Positions 83-7,537 of a DNA stretch of 47,477 bases are shown here, in pieces; the first letter of the stretch is position 1, and every line of letters begins with the position of its first letter. This stretch comes from Seleniivibrio woodruffii (GTDB taxonomy: Bacteria > Chrysiogenota > Deferribacteres > Deferribacterales > Geovibrionaceae). The notes below the pieces were generated by a model. That model had not been told where the DNA came from. It saw nothing but the letters and a program-made list of their open reading frames with translations, and ran no database searches. The stretch covers positions 1 to 47,477 of the forward strand of contig NZ_JAJUIS010000012.1 in assembly GCF_029267515.1 (NCBI RefSeq), in the 5' to 3' direction. The translations under genes and the position numbers were made by a program.

Positions 83-110
83 TGTAACCTTTATTCATGC
101 CATTCGTTAT
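83..110 (+). promoter_or_regulatory. ECF-type promoter for the Gly/Ser/His-rich gene
   Basis: TGTAACC (83-89), a 15-bp spacer and CGTTAT (105-110) form a pattern typical of ECF sigma promoters, which combine an AAC-containing -35 with a CGT-type -10. No good sigma-70 -35/-10 pair is visible in the same place. An ECF sigma gene lies directly downstream at 601, so self-module control is a natural inference. A related GTAACTT occurs ten bases upstream. No expression data support it. Confidence 0.5.
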
Positions 111-148
111 GTAAGTACAAACACCCTATAGTAACAAGGAGACACAAA

Positions 149-556
149 ATGAGAAAAGTTATTTCAGTTTTAACAGTGGCTATAATGGTTATGGCAGCAG
201 GACAGGCTTTTGCAGGCAAAGGCAGCATGGGAGGACACGGAGGCGGTCACGGTCACGGCAGTTCGTCTTCTTCAGGCGGATCATCTTCAAGTGGTTCTTC
301 TTCAGGTGGTTCTTCTTCAGGCGGTTCTTCCTCCGGCGGAACAGGTTCCTCATCCGGAGCAGGAGCATCCGGCGGTCACGGTTCACAGGCTGGCGGGCAC
401 GGCGACGGCACAGGTTCACACCCCGCAGACGGAACAGGAATGGGCAACAAATACAACTATGACGTGAACCACCCCGCAACTGACACTACGACTGACACTA
501 CGACTGACACTACTACAGATACAACAACTGAAACAGATCCCTCATTCTCAATGTAA
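149..556 (+). CDS. Secreted Gly/Ser/His-rich low-complexity protein
   Basis: This is a 135-residue protein of unknown function. Residues 1-22 form a signal peptide ending in GQAFA. The mature part starts with a Gly/His stretch (GGHGGGHGHG), continues with repeated SSSGG units and a second Gly/His patch, and ends in TDTT repeats encoded by 12-bp tandem DNA repeats. The many histidines could bind metal, and the Ser/Gly part is probably disordered; both are inferences. AAGGAG lies before the ATG. Its composition echoes the C-terminal tail of the secreted protein at 1949-2758, which ends the neighbouring sigma-factor operon. The ECF-like promoter upstream suggests that it is a target of that sigma factor. 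Confidence 0.8.
   Translation: MRKVISVLTVAIMVMAAGQAFAGKGSMGGHGGGHGHGSSSSSGGSSSSGSSSGGSSSGGSSSGGTGSSSGAGASGGHGSQAGGHGDGTGSHPADGTGMGNKYNYDVNHPATDTTTDTTTDTTTDTTTETDPSFSM
479..514 (+). repeat. Three tandem 12-bp repeats encoding TDTT units
   Basis: ACTGACACTACG occurs at 479-490 and 491-502, followed by a copy with one change at 503-514. The repeats are in frame and encode Thr/Asp units at the C-terminus of the secreted protein. Copy number could change by slippage without a frameshift. Confidence 0.85.
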
Positions 557-563
557 GAAACAT

Positions 564-592
564 TTGGCGGGGGCTTAAGCCCCCGCTATAAT
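564..592 (+). promoter_or_regulatory. Sigma-70-type promoter for the ECF sigma gene
   Basis: TTGGCG (564-569), a 17-bp spacer and a perfect TATAAT (587-592) stand directly before the ATG at 601. The expected transcription start at about 599 would leave almost no leader, and no strong Shine-Dalgarno precedes the ATG, so a leaderless mRNA is possible. The spacer is almost entirely the hairpin at 567-586. Confidence 0.5.
567..586. terminator. Perfect GC-rich palindrome, terminator or operator
   Basis: GCGGGGGC (567-574) and GCCCCCGC (579-586) pair perfectly around TTAA. It follows the stop of the Gly/Ser/His-rich gene, so it may end that transcript. It lacks a T-run and lies exactly between the -35 and -10 of the next promoter, so a DNA-binding or regulatory role is equally possible. 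Confidence 0.55.
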
Positions 593-600
593 AGAGACAT

Positions 601-1083
601 ATGAAACACAACACAGCACTGACGGCTTTTTTTGAGCAGAACAGGCAGAAACTTTTTGCCTATCTGATAAGACTTTCGGGAAACACTCACGAAGCTGAGG
701 ACGTTTTTCAGGATACCTTTATCAGATATGCGCAAACCTATCCTGATCAGCAAAATCCGGCATTGTTATACACTGTGGCAAAGAACATCTTTCTGGACGG
801 ACGGCGGAAAAACAGATTTTCCGATATGCCGGAAGGATATGAACCCGCAGACGAAAAAAGCCCTGAAAGCATACTTATATGCAGACAGGCGCAGGACAGA
901 CTTAAAACAGCCATGGACAAGCTGCCGCAGGACGAACGAAGCCTGCTCGCCATGGCAGGTGCGGAAGGGCTTAAATACGAAGAGATAGCACAGGCGGCGG
1001 GACTTTCCGTTGCCAATGTGAAAGTAAAGATACACAGAGCCAGACAAAGACTGAGGGCTTTACTGGAGGTTTCAGATGGATAA
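601..1083 (+). CDS. ECF-family RNA polymerase sigma factor
   Basis: This 160-residue protein has the size of an ECF sigma factor. Region 2 spans about residues 5-75 (TALTAFFEQNRQKLFAYLIR, then EAEDVFQDTFIR and a YTVAKNIFLDGRR segment). Region 4 spans about 98-155 (MDKLPQDERSLLAMAGAEG, then the helix-turn-helix with YEEIAQAAGLSVANVKVKI). It directs RNA polymerase core to alternative promoters. Its stop overlaps the start of the next gene (1076), a membrane anti-sigma-like protein, which is the usual arrangement for a sigma held inactive at the membrane. It seems to be transcribed from a housekeeping-type promoter, while the ECF-like promoter lies before the gene at 149. The ECF subgroup was not determined. 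Confidence 0.93.
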   Translation: MKHNTALTAFFEQNRQKLFAYLIRLSGNTHEAEDVFQDTFIRYAQTYPDQQNPALLYTVAKNIFLDGRRKNRFSDMPEGYEPADEKSPESILICRQAQDRLKTAMDKLPQDERSLLAMAGAEGLKYEEIAQAAGLSVANVKVKIHRARQRLRALLEVSDG

Positions 1084-1639
1084 CAGAGATATTCTTATCA
1101 GCCAGTACATTGACGACGAACTGAGTCTTGAGGAAAAAGCGGAGTTCGTCAAAGAGATAAACAGGGACGACTTTTTCTGCACAGAAACACTCTCAATGCT
1201 GGACACGGAGATGCTTATGGCGGGAATGACGCCTCAGGCACCGCCTGTTCCTGAGATAAAGGCGGAGCGCAGACAGATTTTCACCCCCGCTTCCGTGATG
1301 TCTTTTGCGGCACTGGCGGCATCTCTGATTGTCGCTTTAAAAGTGTTTATGTTTGCCCCTATGCCGGAACAGCATAAGGGAGAATACAGATTCGTCGTGC
1401 ACATGCCTGATGCCGGACACGTCGCACTGGCGGGCAGTTTCTCCGACTGGCAGAGCATAGACATGAAACCTGTGGGCAACGGATACTGGCAGGTGAGCGT
1501 ACCACTTGAAAAAGGTGAATATACATACACCTATATACTTGACGGAAAGATAAAAATAGCCGATCCTGCATCACCTGCAAAACAGGTGGACGACTTCGGC
1601 GGGGAAAACTCCGTAATAACCATCGGGAGCGATATCTGA
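1076..1639 (+). CDS. Anti-sigma-like membrane protein with CBM48/E-set domain
   Basis: The protein has 187 residues. The N-terminus (about 1-50, with SQYIDDELSLEEKAEF) resembles the start of anti-sigma factors, but no HxxxCxxC zinc motif is seen. A single membrane segment lies at about 73-93. The remainder (about 104-184) resembles a glycogen-binding or isoamylase-type early-set domain, with a GSFSDWQ motif around W125, W138 in GYWQV, and YTYILDG. With the N-terminus inside the cell, this domain would sit in the periplasm. It overlaps the sigma gene by 8 bp, which fits a sigma/anti-sigma pair. The likely role is to bind the sigma factor inside and sense a ligand outside; the ligand is unknown and carbohydrate binding is not shown. 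The DDFGG motif near the end recurs in the next protein. Confidence 0.75.
   Translation: MDNRDILISQYIDDELSLEEKAEFVKEINRDDFFCTETLSMLDTEMLMAGMTPQAPPVPEIKAERRQIFTPASVMSFAALAASLIVALKVFMFAPMPEQHKGEYRFVVHMPDAGHVALAGSFSDWQSIDMKPVGNGYWQVSVPLEKGEYTYTYILDGKIKIADPASPAKQVDDFGGENSVITIGSDI
1625..1638 (+). promoter_or_regulatory. Shine-Dalgarno GGGAG and CTG start of the lipoprotein
   Basis: GGGAG (1625-1629) stands six bases before CTG at 1636, within the end of the previous gene. Translation from this CTG gives a complete lipoprotein signal. The later GTG at 1687 would remove the signal and the lipobox. No ATG, GTG or TTG lies at the right place in this frame. Confidence 0.5.
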
Positions 1640-1947
1640 GGATATTAACGGCACTGCTTCTGACTTTTCTTGCAGGCTGCGCGGCAGTGGAATTTAAAAC
1701 GGAAAATTCTGTAATGAAAGGATATTTCCGTGTTAAAGACGCGAATAGCGTAGCTTTCTATTCGTCCTCGGACGGATTTACGAAAAACGAAGCGGTGAAA
1801 CAGGGAAAAATATGGACGGTAACTATACCTGAAAGCAGGGAGTTTACCTATTACCTCGAAAAAGACGGCGAAATATACCTGCCCGAATGCGAGATGAAAC
1901 AGCAGGACGATTTCGGCGGCACCGTCTGCGTGTACCAGGAGGACTGA
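1636..1947 (+). CDS. Small lipoprotein with CBM48/E-set-like domain, probable CTG start
   Basis: Starting at CTG 1636 gives 103 residues: RILTALLLTFLAGC forms a hydrophobic signal ending in a good lipobox (LAGC), followed by an about 85-residue mature domain. The mature part parallels the E-set domain of the preceding protein: a short beta-rich stretch, KIWTVTIPE aligned to YWQVSVPLE, FTYYLEKDG aligned to YTYILDGK, and a shared DDFGG near the end. The two genes therefore look like a domain duplication, one copy tethered to the inner membrane and the other to a lipid anchor. They might compete for a ligand or bind each other (inference). A conventional caller would start at GTG 1687 and lose the signal. 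The gene overlaps the previous stop and lies 1 bp before the next ATG. Confidence 0.7.
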   Translation: MRILTALLLTFLAGCAAVEFKTENSVMKGYFRVKDANSVAFYSSSDGFTKNEAVKQGKIWTVTIPESREFTYYLEKDGEIYLPECEMKQQDDFGGTVCVYQED

Positions 1948-1948
1948 G

Positions 1949-2758
1949 ATGAGGTTTTTTGCATTGCTGATTTTGCTGCTGACAGCCGTTCCGGCTTTGG
2001 CTGATATATACGATAATCTTGGACGGACGGCTGAAAAGAACGGCGTGGAAAAGTCACTCGCTGCGAAACTCACAGAGCGTACCAGAACTGCGGGATACGT
2101 CAGCGAAGCCGTGAGCGCCATTGAAAACGCGCTGAACGCACAGATAGGCATGTCCGCAACACGGGTCAGCGAAAAGGTTCTGGAGGGAATTGCCAAAAGG
2201 GTTCAGCAGCAGGCGGTGGCAAACGCAGCCCTGAAAGTTAAGGCCAGATACGAAACGGCATACGCTGTTGCTAAACAGGCGGGGCTGAAAGGAAAACAGG
2301 CTGAAAACACTGCGGATATCGCAGCGGATGCGCTGGCTGCGGGGGCAAACGAAGCCTCCATGGCAAAAACGGCAAAAAGGCTTGCCTCCATGCAGCAGGA
2401 CAGAGAAAAATACGCCGTGGCAGTGATGGCTTTCTACAGAGACATGCTGAGATACGGCGTCAAGGAAACAAGCGCGGCGGGCATTGCCGACGAATCGCTG
2501 AATAAACTATCCGCGGAAGAGATAACAGAATACAGACATCACTTTATGAAGAACGCAGGCACAAACGCTCAGAGCATGGCGGAAACCATGCACAGCCACA
2601 TTGAACACGGTAACTCCGCATCGTCCATGGGGTCGTCGGGCGGACATGGCGGAAGTGAAGGTCACGGATCCGGCGGAAGCTCCGGAGGGGGTTCCGGAGG
2701 CGGGCACGGCGGCGGCGGGCATGGCGGCAGCGGCGGGCATGGCGGCAAATCCAAATAA
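1949..2758 (+). CDS. Secreted helical protein with Gly/His-rich tail
   Basis: This 269-residue protein is not a family I recognise. Residues 1-19 are a signal peptide ending in VPALA. Residues about 20-215 are strongly alpha-helical and Ala-rich, with few aromatic residues. The last 50 or so residues are low-complexity Gly/Ser/His (SSMGSSGGHGG, then GGGHGGGGHGGSGGHGG). That tail is like the body of the protein at 149-556, so the two secreted proteins at either end of the sigma module share a module and perhaps a partner, surface or metal. AGGAGG lies just before the ATG. It is the last gene of the operon and is followed by a terminator. Confidence 0.75.
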   Translation: MRFFALLILLLTAVPALADIYDNLGRTAEKNGVEKSLAAKLTERTRTAGYVSEAVSAIENALNAQIGMSATRVSEKVLEGIAKRVQQQAVANAALKVKARYETAYAVAKQAGLKGKQAENTADIAADALAAGANEASMAKTAKRLASMQQDREKYAVAVMAFYRDMLRYGVKETSAAGIADESLNKLSAEEITEYRHHFMKNAGTNAQSMAETMHSHIEHGNSASSMGSSGGHGGSEGHGSGGSSGGGSGGGHGGGGHGGSGGHGGKSK

Positions 2759-2841: not shown

Positions 2842-2859
2842 ACTGACTACTCAGTCAGT
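2842..2859. promoter_or_regulatory. Palindromic TetR-type operator
   Basis: ACTGACT and AGTCAGT form perfect 7-bp arms around ACTC, with an additional upstream ACTG repeat. Its position between the -10 and the start codon, in front of a TetR gene, points to the operator of that repressor. It also abuts the GTGGGG ribosome-binding region. Confidence 0.7.
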
Positions 2860-2869
2860 GGGGTGCATT

Positions 2870-3454
2870 TTGACCAAAAGACAAAAGATTCTGCGCGAAG
2901 CGGCAAGACTCTTTGCGGAAAAGGGGTTCATCGAAACCAGTACGCAGGAGATAGCCGAGGCGGCTGAAACCGCAACAGGAACAATCTTTTACCATTTCGC
3001 CACCAAAGAGGGGATACTCAAGGAGATATACGTCAGCCTTATCAACGAGTACCTCGAAGCCATGGCGCAGACCGCAGGATCTGCCGGAACGGGACTTGGC
3101 GCAGTTGAAAAGATTCTGCGGATGCATTTTGCCTTCGCAAGGGACTATCGCTCGGAATTTACCGTGTGTCACAGGGACATGCCGGCTCAGATAGTATTCG
3201 ACGACACCCGCCGCGACACAATGCGCAGAAACACCGACAGAAGCATAGCCATCATCAGGGATGCAATAGAAAGGGGCATAGCCGACGGCTCCGTCCGCCC
3301 CGACGCGGATCCTGTGAACGATGCGAAGCTGATTAAGGCGATGCTCCTTGGAACAGCCAGAATGACCCACCTTTCAGTGACAGAGTTTGACGACGCAGAG
3401 AAAACAACATGCGATTTCTGCATGTCTGCGCTCAAAAACAGAGGTATAGAATGA
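2870..3454 (+). CDS. TetR/AcrR-family transcriptional regulator
   Basis: This is a 194-residue regulator when started at TTG 2870, giving the standard opening MTKRQKILREAARLFAEKGF. GGGG lies six bases upstream. The alternative GTG at 2858 would start inside the operator and has no Shine-Dalgarno. The N-terminal helix-turn-helix covers residues about 5-50 (TSTQEIAEAAETATGTIFYH, the classic TetR recognition helix). The rest is the helical ligand-binding and dimer domain. It is the first gene of an efflux operon and overlaps the next gene by ATGA, so it most likely represses the operon until a toxic ligand binds. The ligand is unknown. Confidence 0.9.
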   Translation: MTKRQKILREAARLFAEKGFIETSTQEIAEAAETATGTIFYHFATKEGILKEIYVSLINEYLEAMAQTAGSAGTGLGAVEKILRMHFAFARDYRSEFTVCHRDMPAQIVFDDTRRDTMRRNTDRSIAIIRDAIERGIADGSVRPDADPVNDAKLIKAMLLGTARMTHLSVTEFDDAEKTTCDFCMSALKNRGIE

Positions 3455-4917
3455 TACGTTTTATTTTATTCATGCTATTTGCATTTCCGGCACTGTGCTT
3501 CGCCGGAACCCTCACCCTGCGGGATGCCATCGCCACAGGGCTTCAAAACAGCTACTCCGTCATGATCCAGAAGAGCGCCGCAGACGCGGTGCATGGCAAC
3601 GTGACCGCTGAGGATGCGAAGTTCGATCCCGTTGCTGGCGCTTCCGTGTCAGCGGGCGGTTCTAATACGCCCACATCATACGCCCCCTATAACATGGACT
3701 ATCTTAAACAGAGGAACCTCACTGCCGCCGCCGAGCTGGAAAAACTCCACAGAAGCGGTATGACCGGAAAATTCTCCCTTGAAACATCGAAACTCGGCAC
3801 TAACGATCCTTACGAGGAGCTTGACCCTCAGTACAGAACAGTTTTTTTAATGAACATAACCCAGCCGCTCCTAAAAAACTACGGCAGGGATATCAACGCC
3901 ACAGGGCTGAAAAACGCCGAGCTTTCATTCAAACAGGCACAGTTTGACCTCTACGCCAGAATGACAGAAACCGCCGCGCAGATTGAAACAGCTTACTACG
4001 CCCTCGTGCGTGCACAGGACGTTCTTACGCTGTCGAAAAAATCGGAAGAACTGGCGAAAAACCTTCTGGATTCAGACAGAAAACGCTTCAACGCAGGGAT
4101 AATTCCCATAACCGAGGTGCAGGAGGCGGAAACGGCACTTGCAGGAAGACGCGAACAGACGGTCAACGCTCAGTCTGCTGTGAAAACGGCTGAGATAGCC
4201 CTCGAAAACCTCATCAACGCTCCTCTTAACGGTCAGACAGAGGATATCCGACCGACATTTATAAACCCCGACGAGGATGGATTCTATAAAACCGCCCTCA
4301 CTGTCAGCCCCGAAATAGAGAAGCAGCGCACAGAGCTTGAAAAAAGGGACATCACCATAAAATATCTCAAAAATCAGGAACTTCCCGAACTGGATGCAAC
4401 GGCTGCCCTTGGAGTCATAGGGCTTTCCGGCAACCCGACGGCTTCGAACCATTTTGACGGCACCTATCATGATTCGCTGTCCGATATGACAGAAGGGGAC
4501 GGTTTCGAATGGCAGCTCGGACTGAGTGTGTCATACCCGCTGGGAGCAAGGGGTGCAAAAGCCCGCACAGCGTCAGCAGCCGCAGAGAAGATGCGCGCGG
4601 TATACACGCTGAAAAAGCTGGAGCAGGACACCAGAGCACAGATACGCACCGCCTCGACAGCTATGAAGAGCGGGCACGACAGATACGACATTGCACAGGA
4701 TTTCGTACGGCTTGCCGACGTGACCCTTACGCAGGAGATGAAAAAACTCGGCGAAGGGCTTTCGGACACCTTCCGCGTCCTGAAATTTCAGGAAGACCTC
4801 ACCGATGCCAGAATACGCGCCGTAAACGCCCTTTATGACTACAGAAAGGGCGAAGCCGAACTTTACAGATCAGCCGGAACGAGCCTTGACCGTTTCGGTT
4901 TCAAAACGGGGGAATAG
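3451..4917 (+). CDS. TolC-like outer-membrane efflux protein
   Basis: This 488-residue protein has a signal peptide (FILFMLFAFPALCFA) followed by TLTLRDAIATGLQNSYSVM, a typical start of the outer membrane efflux protein family, and two long coiled-coil helical repeats. It forms the outer-membrane channel of a tripartite pump. I start it at ATG 3451, which overlaps the TetR stop as ATGA; an upstream in-frame ATG at 3409 would put a non-signal extension inside tetR. Its stop is directly followed by the ATG of the membrane-fusion gene. Confidence 0.9.
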   Translation: MIRFILFMLFAFPALCFAGTLTLRDAIATGLQNSYSVMIQKSAADAVHGNVTAEDAKFDPVAGASVSAGGSNTPTSYAPYNMDYLKQRNLTAAAELEKLHRSGMTGKFSLETSKLGTNDPYEELDPQYRTVFLMNITQPLLKNYGRDINATGLKNAELSFKQAQFDLYARMTETAAQIETAYYALVRAQDVLTLSKKSEELAKNLLDSDRKRFNAGIIPITEVQEAETALAGRREQTVNAQSAVKTAEIALENLINAPLNGQTEDIRPTFINPDEDGFYKTALTVSPEIEKQRTELEKRDITIKYLKNQELPELDATAALGVIGLSGNPTASNHFDGTYHDSLSDMTEGDGFEWQLGLSVSYPLGARGAKARTASAAAEKMRAVYTLKKLEQDTRAQIRTASTAMKSGHDRYDIAQDFVRLADVTLTQEMKKLGEGLSDTFRVLKFQEDLTDARIRAVNALYDYRKGEAELYRSAGTSLDRFGFKTGE

Positions 4918-5985
4918 ATGAACGCCGAAGAATACTCTAAAAAACTCGAACAGCAGGCACAGAAACCTGCAAAAAAGAAAAAGACCATTCTCTATGCCGC
5001 GTTAACCGTAATCGCGGTACTGCTTCTGATACATTACACACCTAAACTCGTGTACGCGATGCACCACGAGACCACCGACAACGCCTTCGTAAAGGGCGAT
5101 ATGGTGCCCGTCTCACCTCAGATAAAAGGAAAAATATCAAAAGTTTACATCGAAGACAACATGCAGGTGAAAAAGGGGGACATCCTCTTTGAGATAGAGA
5201 GTGACGACTACTCCATAGCCCTTGCCAAAAGCCGCGAAGAACTTGCAGCGGCTCAGGCGCAGATAGCCGCCATAGACGCATCCGCGGCACAGGCGCAGGA
5301 GAACATCAATCAGGCTCAGGCACTCCGCAACAAGGCGCAGTCCGAAAGAAACTTCGCCGACAAGGAACAGCAGCGCTATGCCCGCCTGGTATCAGAAAAC
5401 CTCGTGTCAAAGAACTCATACGACAGCGTTAATGCGAAAGCAGACGAAACTGCGGCTCAGTCTGCCGCGGCAGACGCATCCGTTAAGATAGCGCTGGCAA
5501 ACCTCGCCACCATACAGGCGAACAGGAAAGCTGCGGAATTTAAAGCCGCATCCGCAATGCAGGCTGTGAAGGCGGCGGAGCTTGACCTTGAGCGCACCGT
5601 AATCCGCGCACCCCGCAGCGGACACATAGGACAGAACAACGTTAAGGTCGGCAGATTCGTCCAGCCCGGTCAGACAGTCATTTCACTTGTGGGTTCTGAA
5701 AAGCTCTGGATTGAGGCGAACTTCAAAGAAACACAGCTAAACCATATCCGCGTGGGTCAGAAGGTTGAGATAAAGGCTGACGCATATCCGGACATGAAGA
5801 TCGAGGGGCATGTGGACAGCATCCAGCCCGGCACAGGTTCGGCATTCAGCCTGCTTCCGGCGGAGAACGCAACGGGCAACTTCGTTAAAGTCGTTCAGCG
5901 CGTTCCCGTCAAAATACTCATAGACGGTGACGCGGGACTCCTTGTCCCCGGTCTGTCCGTGGAACCCAGCGTAAAAATAAAATAA
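4918..5985 (+). CDS. EmrA-like membrane fusion protein of efflux pump
   Basis: This 355-residue HlyD/EmrA-family periplasmic adaptor has one N-terminal membrane segment (about 23-41) and then TTDNAFVKGDMVPVSPQIKG, the EmrA-type start of the lipoyl-like domain. A long Ala/Gln-rich coiled coil (about 95-215) reaches toward TolC. The returning lipoyl half contains RTVIRAPRSGHIG, followed by a beta-barrel domain (VSLVGSEKLWIEANFKETQL). It couples the inner-membrane transporter at 5987 with the outer-membrane channel at 3451. It begins immediately after the tolC-like stop and ends one base before the transporter, so the genes are translationally coupled. Confidence 0.92.
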   Translation: MNAEEYSKKLEQQAQKPAKKKKTILYAALTVIAVLLLIHYTPKLVYAMHHETTDNAFVKGDMVPVSPQIKGKISKVYIEDNMQVKKGDILFEIESDDYSIALAKSREELAAAQAQIAAIDASAAQAQENINQAQALRNKAQSERNFADKEQQRYARLVSENLVSKNSYDSVNAKADETAAQSAAADASVKIALANLATIQANRKAAEFKAASAMQAVKAAELDLERTVIRAPRSGHIGQNNVKVGRFVQPGQTVISLVGSEKLWIEANFKETQLNHIRVGQKVEIKADAYPDMKIEGHVDSIQPGTGSAFSLLPAENATGNFVKVVQRVPVKILIDGDAGLLVPGLSVEPSVKIK

Positions 5986-5986
5986 T

Positions 5987-7537
5987 ATGGCACAGTCAAA
6001 CAACAGGCTAATGATAACCATAACGGTTATGACCGGAGCTATCATCAGCGCACTGGATACAAGCATAGTTAACGTCGCCCTGCCCTATATGCGCGGCAAT
6101 CTGGGCGCATCCGTTGAGGAGATAGCGTGGGTTTCAACCTCCTATATCCTTGCCAACGTTATAATCATGCCCATAATAGGGCTTCTGAGCGCCAGATACG
6201 GGCGGAAAAATTTCTATCTGGTCAGCGTGGTGGTGTTCACCATTACGTCCATGCTGTGCGGTATCGCGTGGGATCTTAACTCCATGATATTTTTCAGGGT
6301 TTTACAGGGTCTCGGCGGCGGTGCACTTATCCCCGTTTCACAGGCGATACTGCGTGAGAACTATCCTCCGGAGAAACAGGGGCTTGCCATGGGCATATTC
6401 GGTCTCGGCGTGGTCATGGGTCCGGCTTTCGGTCCCACACTGGGCGGGTGGCTCACAGACCATTTCGCATGGCCGTGGATATTCTTCATAAACCTCCCTG
6501 TCGGTATAATAAACATAATGCTGACAATGAAATATGTCGAAGACCCTCCCTATCTCCAGCGTAAGAAAGAGAGATGGGACATGGCGGGACTTCTCTTCAT
6601 GGTTGTCGGTCTCGGTTCGCTCCAGCTTATGCTTGAGGAGGGACAGACAAAGGACTGGTTCGCATCCGATTATATCAGGATTCTGTCTGTGACCGCCGTC
6701 GTCGGGATGGCGCTGTTCATATGGCGTGAGCTCACGGCGGAAAAACCCGCGGTGGATCTGCGGCTTCTGAAAGACAGAACCTTCTGTACGGGAACCTTCC
6801 TCGGCGGGGTGCTCGGCATAAGCCTTTTCGCGTCGCTGTTCCTTTTGCCGCTGTTTTTGCAGCAGCTTCTCGGATATCCCGCGTTCGACTCAGGGCTTGC
6901 CATGATGCCGCGAAGTGTTGCCATGGCGTTCTTTATGCCAATAGTAGGAAGGCTTTATACCATACTTGGTGCGCGGGTTCTTATAGCAGCGGGGCTTGCC
7001 ATAAATGCGTTCAGTTTTTGGGAGCTTTCCACCCTTTCGCTGGACGTTGGCTACTGGGACATATTCTTTCCTCAGGTGTGGCAGGGGTTCGGGTTCGGCG
7101 CGATATTCGTTGCGCTGTCAACGGTGACCCTCTCCACAATAGATAAATCGAAAATGACCGATGCTTCGGGACTCTACAACGTCGTACGTCAGGTCTTCGG
7201 TTCGGTGGGCATCGCGCTCTCCGCAACTTTTCTCACCCGCTACGAGACAGTTTACCACAGCTTTCTTGTGGAAAAGATAACCGCAGTGAACGACGCGGCT
7301 CAGAACCTTCTTTCCGGGCTTGGCGGCATGTATTTCTCCGCGGGATATGATGCGGACAGGGCTTCAATGATGAGTATGCAGGCGGTTAACGGGCTTGTGA
7401 CGAAACAGGGTGCCATGATGGCGTTCAACCACGTTTTTCTGCTGGTTGCGCTGCTGTTTCTCGTCAGCCTGCCGCTGGTGCTTCTGCTTAAAGACGAGAA
7501 GAAACCTTCCGCGTCCGGTCAGGTGCACGCGGATTAA
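5987..7537 (+). CDS. EmrB/QacA-type MFS drug transporter (DHA2)
   Basis: This 516-residue multi-pass membrane protein has the size and 14-helix look of the DHA2 drug:proton antiporters. Motif D1 (ALDTSIVNVALP) is in the first helix, motif A (SARYGRKNFY) follows helix 2, and motif C (GVVMGPAFGPTLGGWL) lies in helix 5. With the adaptor and TolC-like channel it should export hydrophobic compounds across both membranes; the substrate is unknown. It is the last gene of the operon and converges with the minus-strand DUF155 gene, overlapping it by 4 bp. Confidence 0.93.
   Translation: MAQSNNRLMITITVMTGAIISALDTSIVNVALPYMRGNLGASVEEIAWVSTSYILANVIIMPIIGLLSARYGRKNFYLVSVVVFTITSMLCGIAWDLNSMIFFRVLQGLGGGALIPVSQAILRENYPPEKQGLAMGIFGLGVVMGPAFGPTLGGWLTDHFAWPWIFFINLPVGIINIMLTMKYVEDPPYLQRKKERWDMAGLLFMVVGLGSLQLMLEEGQTKDWFASDYIRILSVTAVVGMALFIWRELTAEKPAVDLRLLKDRTFCTGTFLGGVLGISLFASLFLLPLFLQQLLGYPAFDSGLAMMPRSVAMAFFMPIVGRLYTILGARVLIAAGLAINAFSFWELSTLSLDVGYWDIFFPQVWQGFGFGAIFVALSTVTLSTIDKSKMTDASGLYNVVRQVFGSVGIALSATFLTRYETVYHSFLVEKITAVNDAAQNLLSGLGGMYFSAGYDADRASMMSMQAVNGLVTKQGAMMAFNHVFLLVALLFLVSLPLVLLLKDEKKPSASGQVHAD

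Follow-up and report, generated by a model that had tools for sequence, protein, structure and literature searches.

Extracytoplasmic function (ECF) sigma factors canonically recognise promoters made of an AAC and a CGT box, and positive autoregulation is the rule among them (PMC8103513). In ECF52 (SCO4117 of Streptomyces coelicolor), a periplasmic domain of the carbohydrate-binding type is fused to the sigma factor itself (PMC8999054). Here we analyzed a five-gene sigma factor module of Seleniivibrio woodruffii (phylum Deferribacterota). It lies in the window, i.e. the whole stretch of 47,477 nucleotides analyzed (contig NZ_JAJUIS010000012.1), which opens at the contig start of a 2.8-Mb genome. 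All five genes grouped in a preliminary description were confirmed by reading the window sequence: they are placed head to tail on the + strand between 149 and 2758, and code for a small secreted protein (149-556), an ECF sigma factor (601-1083), a putative membrane anti-sigma factor (1076-1639), a lipoprotein (about 1636-1947) and a secreted all-helical protein (1949-2758). We consider it quite probable, from the comparisons reported below, that they form a conserved, autoregulated ECF sigma module working as a switch of the cell envelope.

The neighbourhood is kept far beyond the genus. We scanned 84,980 species genomes and obtained 390 relatives; adjacency was counted in the best 80 of these 390, which belong to the Deferribacterota and Desulfobacterota, or are labelled merely as Proteobacteria or bacteria. 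Adjoining the anti-sigma gene, we found the sigma gene in 80/80, the lipoprotein gene in 76/80 and the helical protein gene in 74/80, and all three were present in the same order in 71 of the 80. Among the 60 nearest genomes, 25 had an anti-sigma match (1 of the 25 being weak), and whole families of the order have no module, which is therefore not essential. Where loci were fully readable (23 cases), sigma, anti-sigma and lipoprotein genes were adjacent in 22, the exception being cut by a contig end, and downstream lay the helical protein or an exported protein resembling it. Chance clustering of the five genes is thus unlikely, since the neighbourhood is kept across phyla, well beyond chance; the preliminary description had left the grouping to be judged by its conservation in relatives, and on this point it is decisively borne out. 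Ten weaker matches were also found in other lineages: an ECF gene lay beside the E-set anti-sigma gene in 10/10, with the helical protein in 8/10 and the lipoprotein in 2/10. Since most of these distant loci lack the lipoprotein, whereas the other three components are retained, the ancestral core likely consisted of sigma, anti-sigma and helical protein, to which the lipoprotein was added. Two distant loci (L151 and L152) have the ECF and E-set anti-sigma genes and no helical protein, and adjoin a gene whose product starts like a PHP-type hydrolase (YIDIHSHILSDIDDG); this context suggests that the anti-sigma type has been reused.

The sigma factor (160 amino acids) consists of sigma2 and sigma4 only: the Sigma70_r2 (PF04542, E 3e-10) and Sigma70_r4 (PF08281, E 5e-15) matches are both above the Pfam cut-offs and sigma3 is absent, as expected of the ECF type already proposed for it. 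The genome holds one other sigma relative, a weak one with 26% identity. The promoter with which the sigma factor is probably paired, TGTAACC-N15-CGTTAT, is located at 83-110 on the + strand, upstream of the 149 gene. It is the single exact match in the genome, and the exact motif occurs once per genome in 12/12 family genomes, always at the module; the reversed motif, used as a control in the same 12 genomes, gave 0 matches, and a looser promoter pattern added one extra site, in one family genome. Throughout the order, the same motif aligns 5' of orthologues of the small secreted gene. One-mismatch matches elsewhere in this genome numbered 3, vs 1 for the control, and no convincing target was found at them.

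A shorter form of the motif, TGTAAC-N16-CGT, was present in 120 copies in 74 loci, mostly from Desulfobacterota, vs a mean of 2.45 copies at 20 other spacings. These sites precede the sigma gene in 49 cases, the helical protein gene in 30 and a gene for a secreted protein with DGTG-like repeats in 28, i.e. 107 in all; the sigma gene has its own copy of the promoter in 49 of the 74 loci, and in Desulfobacterota the three genes often each have a separate copy. Several of the other 13 sites precede different secreted proteins. No carbohydrate enzyme, and no protease or chaperone, was seen among the predicted targets at these 120 sites. Two Desulfosarcina genomes contain three copies of the motif each, with two copies placed at the module; in Desulfosarcina widdelii, the third match (locus L163, G386:C1:4715242) is found 79 nucleotides 5' of a small exported protein that is not Gly-rich, a possible extra member of the regulon. 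An AAC (-35) and CGT (-10) promoter and autoregulation, the usual marks of ECF factors, are therefore both present, as judged by sequence only. Because the motif is unique in each family genome and stands at the module, and because of the site counts in Desulfobacterota, the predicted control of the 149 gene by the sigma factor is strongly supported. The proposal of the preliminary description that the sigma factor switches on this Gly-rich, surface-type protein agrees with these data, a sigma-type promoter being found 5' of the 149 gene in every family genome.

The 149 gene itself (149-556, + strand) is an open reading frame with a signal peptide, preceded by a ribosome-binding site, AAGGAG, at 136-141 on the same strand; its Gly/Ser/His-rich product carries a DGTG motif. 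Orthologues are located 5' of the sigma gene in most Deferribacterota loci, and the C-terminal DGTG motif is kept. For the 149 protein, neither a Pfam family nor a domain recognisable by sequence was found, and no Pfam family was above cut-off for the DGTG proteins. Gln/Tyr/His-rich stretches (HQYQYQ) replace or accompany the Gly-rich ones in certain proteins, either predicted targets of the sigma factor or orthologues of the 149 product (L101, L120, and the 149 orthologues in L033 and L034). Between the 149 and sigma genes, a perfect 20-nucleotide palindrome (567-586) would form a hairpin, overlapped in this genus by a possible housekeeping promoter, TTGGCG-N17-TATAAT (564-592, + strand); the scan gave 3 such sites vs 2.5 expected, which is not significant alone. 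Hairpins of differing sequence occupy the equivalent place in 19/20 Deferribacterota loci. The exception, L043, has no hairpin and has a second sigma-type promoter directly 5' of the sigma gene. The hairpin likely makes the 149 transcript more abundant than that of the downstream genes, and the housekeeping promoter likely provides basal amounts of sigma and anti-sigma. At the other end, a terminator-like hairpin followed by a T-run (2764-2789, + strand, detected by scan) ends the operon.

The third gene (1076-1639, + strand) codes for the putative membrane anti-sigma, in which a single transmembrane helix connects an N-terminal ISQYIDDEL domain with a periplasmic E-set domain. The AMPK1_CBM (PF16561, E 2.7e-9) and CBM_48 matches of this protein are above the Pfam cut-offs, in agreement with the periplasmic CBM48/E-set domain first noticed in it. 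AMPK1_CBM was matched at E<=0.01 by 21/21 members of the family, whose profile matches AMPK-beta CBM structures by sequence (E 2e-12). The constant adjacency to an ECF sigma gene in the 80 relatives is that of class I anti-sigma factors.

Downstream, the lipoprotein gene (1636-1947, + strand) starts 5' of the listed GTG at 1687, probably at a CTG at 1636, which shares bases with the stop codon of the anti-sigma gene; family members from other genera have TTG there. With a CTG start, callers limited to ATG, GTG and TTG would clip the signal peptide. Among 96 aligned relatives, the lipobox Cys is present in 96/96 and the +2 residue is never Asp, so that the E. coli prediction rule places the lipoprotein in the outer membrane. 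The lipoprotein alone gave no match to CBM families. Compared with the anti-sigma, it gave a BLAST E of 8e-5 at the DNA level, and a profile-profile alignment of 21 anti-sigmas with 20 lipoproteins (hhalign) gave a probability of 98.8% and E 6e-17 over the E-set region. Its AlphaFold model (predicted local distance difference test, pLDDT, 87) best fits AMPK-beta CBM structures (Foldseek E 3e-4, TM 0.60-0.69), and DDFGG is common to both E-set domains. The lipoprotein is thus a true second E-set copy, of AMPK1_CBM/CBM48 fold, as the preliminary description had claimed from the shared strand pattern and motif. Two Cys residues flank DDFGG, in 93 and 95 of the 96 lipoproteins, which suggests a disulfide.

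The last gene (1949-2758, + strand) codes for the secreted all-helical protein with a Gly/His-rich tail. It is separated from the lipoprotein gene by a gap of one base in the window, and therefore probably relies on an upstream promoter. The helical domain, aligned over 33 homologues from two phyla, is predicted as a well-folded, all-helical structure (pLDDT 93), with constant charged positions at K76, E79, K83, R100 and R168. No Pfam family or PDB sequence match was found for this protein, nor any Foldseek match of the model to the PDB at E<=1e-3; designed helical repeats rank top with VIA-align. These missing relatives do not prove a new fold. The 149 and 1949 products had been presented as twins: they do share Gly/Ser/His-rich low-complexity parts, and nothing else is common to them, the helical domain belonging to the 1949 protein alone. 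In the homologues examined, the tail is Gly-rich; it is His-rich solely near this genus (13.8% His in this tail, at least 8% in 1/60 Desulfobacterota homologues). Metal-binding by the His-rich tails was considered and rejected, since the His residues are not conserved.

In the reading we favour, the anti-sigma would hold the sigma factor at the inner membrane through its cytoplasmic N-terminal domain, and its periplasmic E-set domain would be the receiving side. By analogy with RseB and RcsF, the E-set domain of the lipoprotein would most likely contact the anti-sigma protein and thereby modulate it. The brake would be lifted by a signal from the envelope or the surface, and the sigma factor would then fire the promoter at 83-110, from which the 149 gene would be read and, past the hairpin, the whole operon including the Gly-tailed helical protein. 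The output would be the two secreted Gly-rich proteins, and more of the switch. Several observations weigh against this reading. The anti-sigma domain is recognised weakly (zf-HC2, E 0.009, below cut-off, with 2/21 members matching), and anti-sigma activity is therefore proposed on the grounds of gene position, membrane topology and linkage. None of the ten distant loci showed the promoter motif, some relatives have no helical protein nearby, and the lipoprotein is missing from 8/10 distant modules, so that the basic mechanism cannot depend on it.

What the E-set domains perceive can be understood in other ways. The preliminary description supposed that lipoprotein and anti-sigma compete for a glycan or protein ligand; as a glycan sensor, the anti-sigma domain might bind an alpha-glucan-like or matrix polysaccharide, as RsgI anti-sigmas do by means of true CBMs, and the lipoprotein would compete for it or deliver it. 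The domain is clearly of the AMPK1_CBM/CBM48 family, and of the four AMPK-beta residues that we take to be the main glycan contacts (Trp100, Lys126, Trp133 and Asn150), the equivalents of Trp100 and Asn150 are present in 101/101 aligned anti-sigmas. This conservation is partly forced for Asn150, since the NS of the motif was built into one search pattern, and is not for the Trp. However, Lys126 and Trp133 have equivalents in 0/101, even if a Trp is seen by eye at the Trp133 position in 6/10 distant anti-sigmas. In the lipoproteins, Trp100 is replaced by Phe, Tyr or Val (96/96), and the Ser beside Asn150 has become Cys. Judged from these alignments, the anti-sigma has lost half of the AMPK contacts and the lipoprotein almost all of them, which leaves glycan competition unsupported; the lack of carbohydrate enzymes among the predicted targets also speaks against glycan sensing. 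We regard this explanation as quite improbable, and direct protein modulation as more likely than glycan competition.

The protein contacted by the anti-sigma might be the lipoprotein or a secreted protein, both being possible candidates. If its E-set domain sensed the secreted helical protein, the switch would track the export or surface load by product feedback, and the lipoprotein would be a later refinement. The helical protein indeed stands next to the anti-sigma in most distant loci, of which few have the lipoprotein; in many loci a sigma promoter of its own marks the helical protein as a dedicated target, and its constant charged residues are compatible with such a role. Yet co-occurrence indicates co-function rather than contact, and a few relatives, as well as 2/10 distant ones, have no helical protein near the module, so that we hold product feedback to be unlikely. 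The lipoprotein could also be a bystander to signalling, its duplicated E-set domain being retained for a structural role in the envelope. Its absence from most distant modules and its surface, which with its Cys pair is unlike that of the anti-sigma domain, would be accounted for in this way; but it lies directly 3' of the anti-sigma gene in 76/80 relatives, with codons often overlapping, as is typical of stoichiometric partners, and we find a bystander doubtful. A more speculative scenario, which we advance only tentatively, combines these elements: in an ancient module, the anti-sigma would sense the helical protein made under sigma control, and the paralogous lipoprotein would be a later outer-membrane relay, so that at least two phyla would share a product-feedback switch governing a surface layer or matrix.

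Around the module, the window contains at 2858-7537, 3' of the operon, a TetR regulator, an outer-membrane efflux protein and, as judged from sequence, an apparent membrane-fusion protein and an apparent efflux transporter. This efflux neighbour differs within the genus, L031 having another efflux cluster. In three loci of the same genus (L030, L031 and L032), the gene lying divergently beside the 149 gene codes for an exported protein whose start resembles methionine sulfoxide reductase (GGCFWCMEPPF); this neighbour is lost in the window, at the contig end.

With its 390 relatives, the proposed switch is present in hundreds of bacteria, which are mostly anaerobes and include many sulfate reducers, and its promoter and immediate targets are predicted well enough for a direct test in a culturable strain. 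With one paralogous E-set domain carried by an inner-membrane anti-sigma and the other by a lipoprotein predicted to lie in the outer membrane, the module hints at a simple means by which the cell may sense the condition of its envelope, and the helical protein represents a secreted family with no recognised solved relative. In the open-access literature searched, we found no description of the module, and nothing relevant on an ECF factor or anti-sigma with an AMPK1_CBM, glycogen-binding, CBM48 or isoamylase domain; the sigma factor may sit, without a function, in the ECF re-classification, which was outside that search.

Among described systems, the module resembles those of the RpoE-RseA-RseB type by its ECF factor co-transcribed with a single-pass anti-sigma, its AAC/CGT promoter, its positive autoregulation and its extra envelope protein (PMC8103513). 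It differs from them by a periplasmic E-set domain of the AMPK/CBM48 family, of which the lipoprotein carries a paralogue, and by secreted Gly-rich outputs in place of proteases or chaperones among the predicted targets. SigI/RsgI of Clostridium thermocellum likewise has an anti-sigma with an extracellular domain of the carbohydrate-binding type, but its partner is SigI and its targets are glycoside hydrolases, whereas here the partner is an ECF factor, the glycan site is half kept, and no polysaccharide-degrading target was seen at the 120 sites. ECF52 also couples ECF signalling to a periplasmic domain of this type, carried there by the sigma factor and here by the anti-sigma, with a duplicate in the lipoprotein. 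Finally, both E-set copies have the fold and family of the AMPK-beta glycogen-binding domain (CBM48), from which they differ by glycan contacts that appear partly replaced in the anti-sigma, and almost wholly in the lipoprotein.

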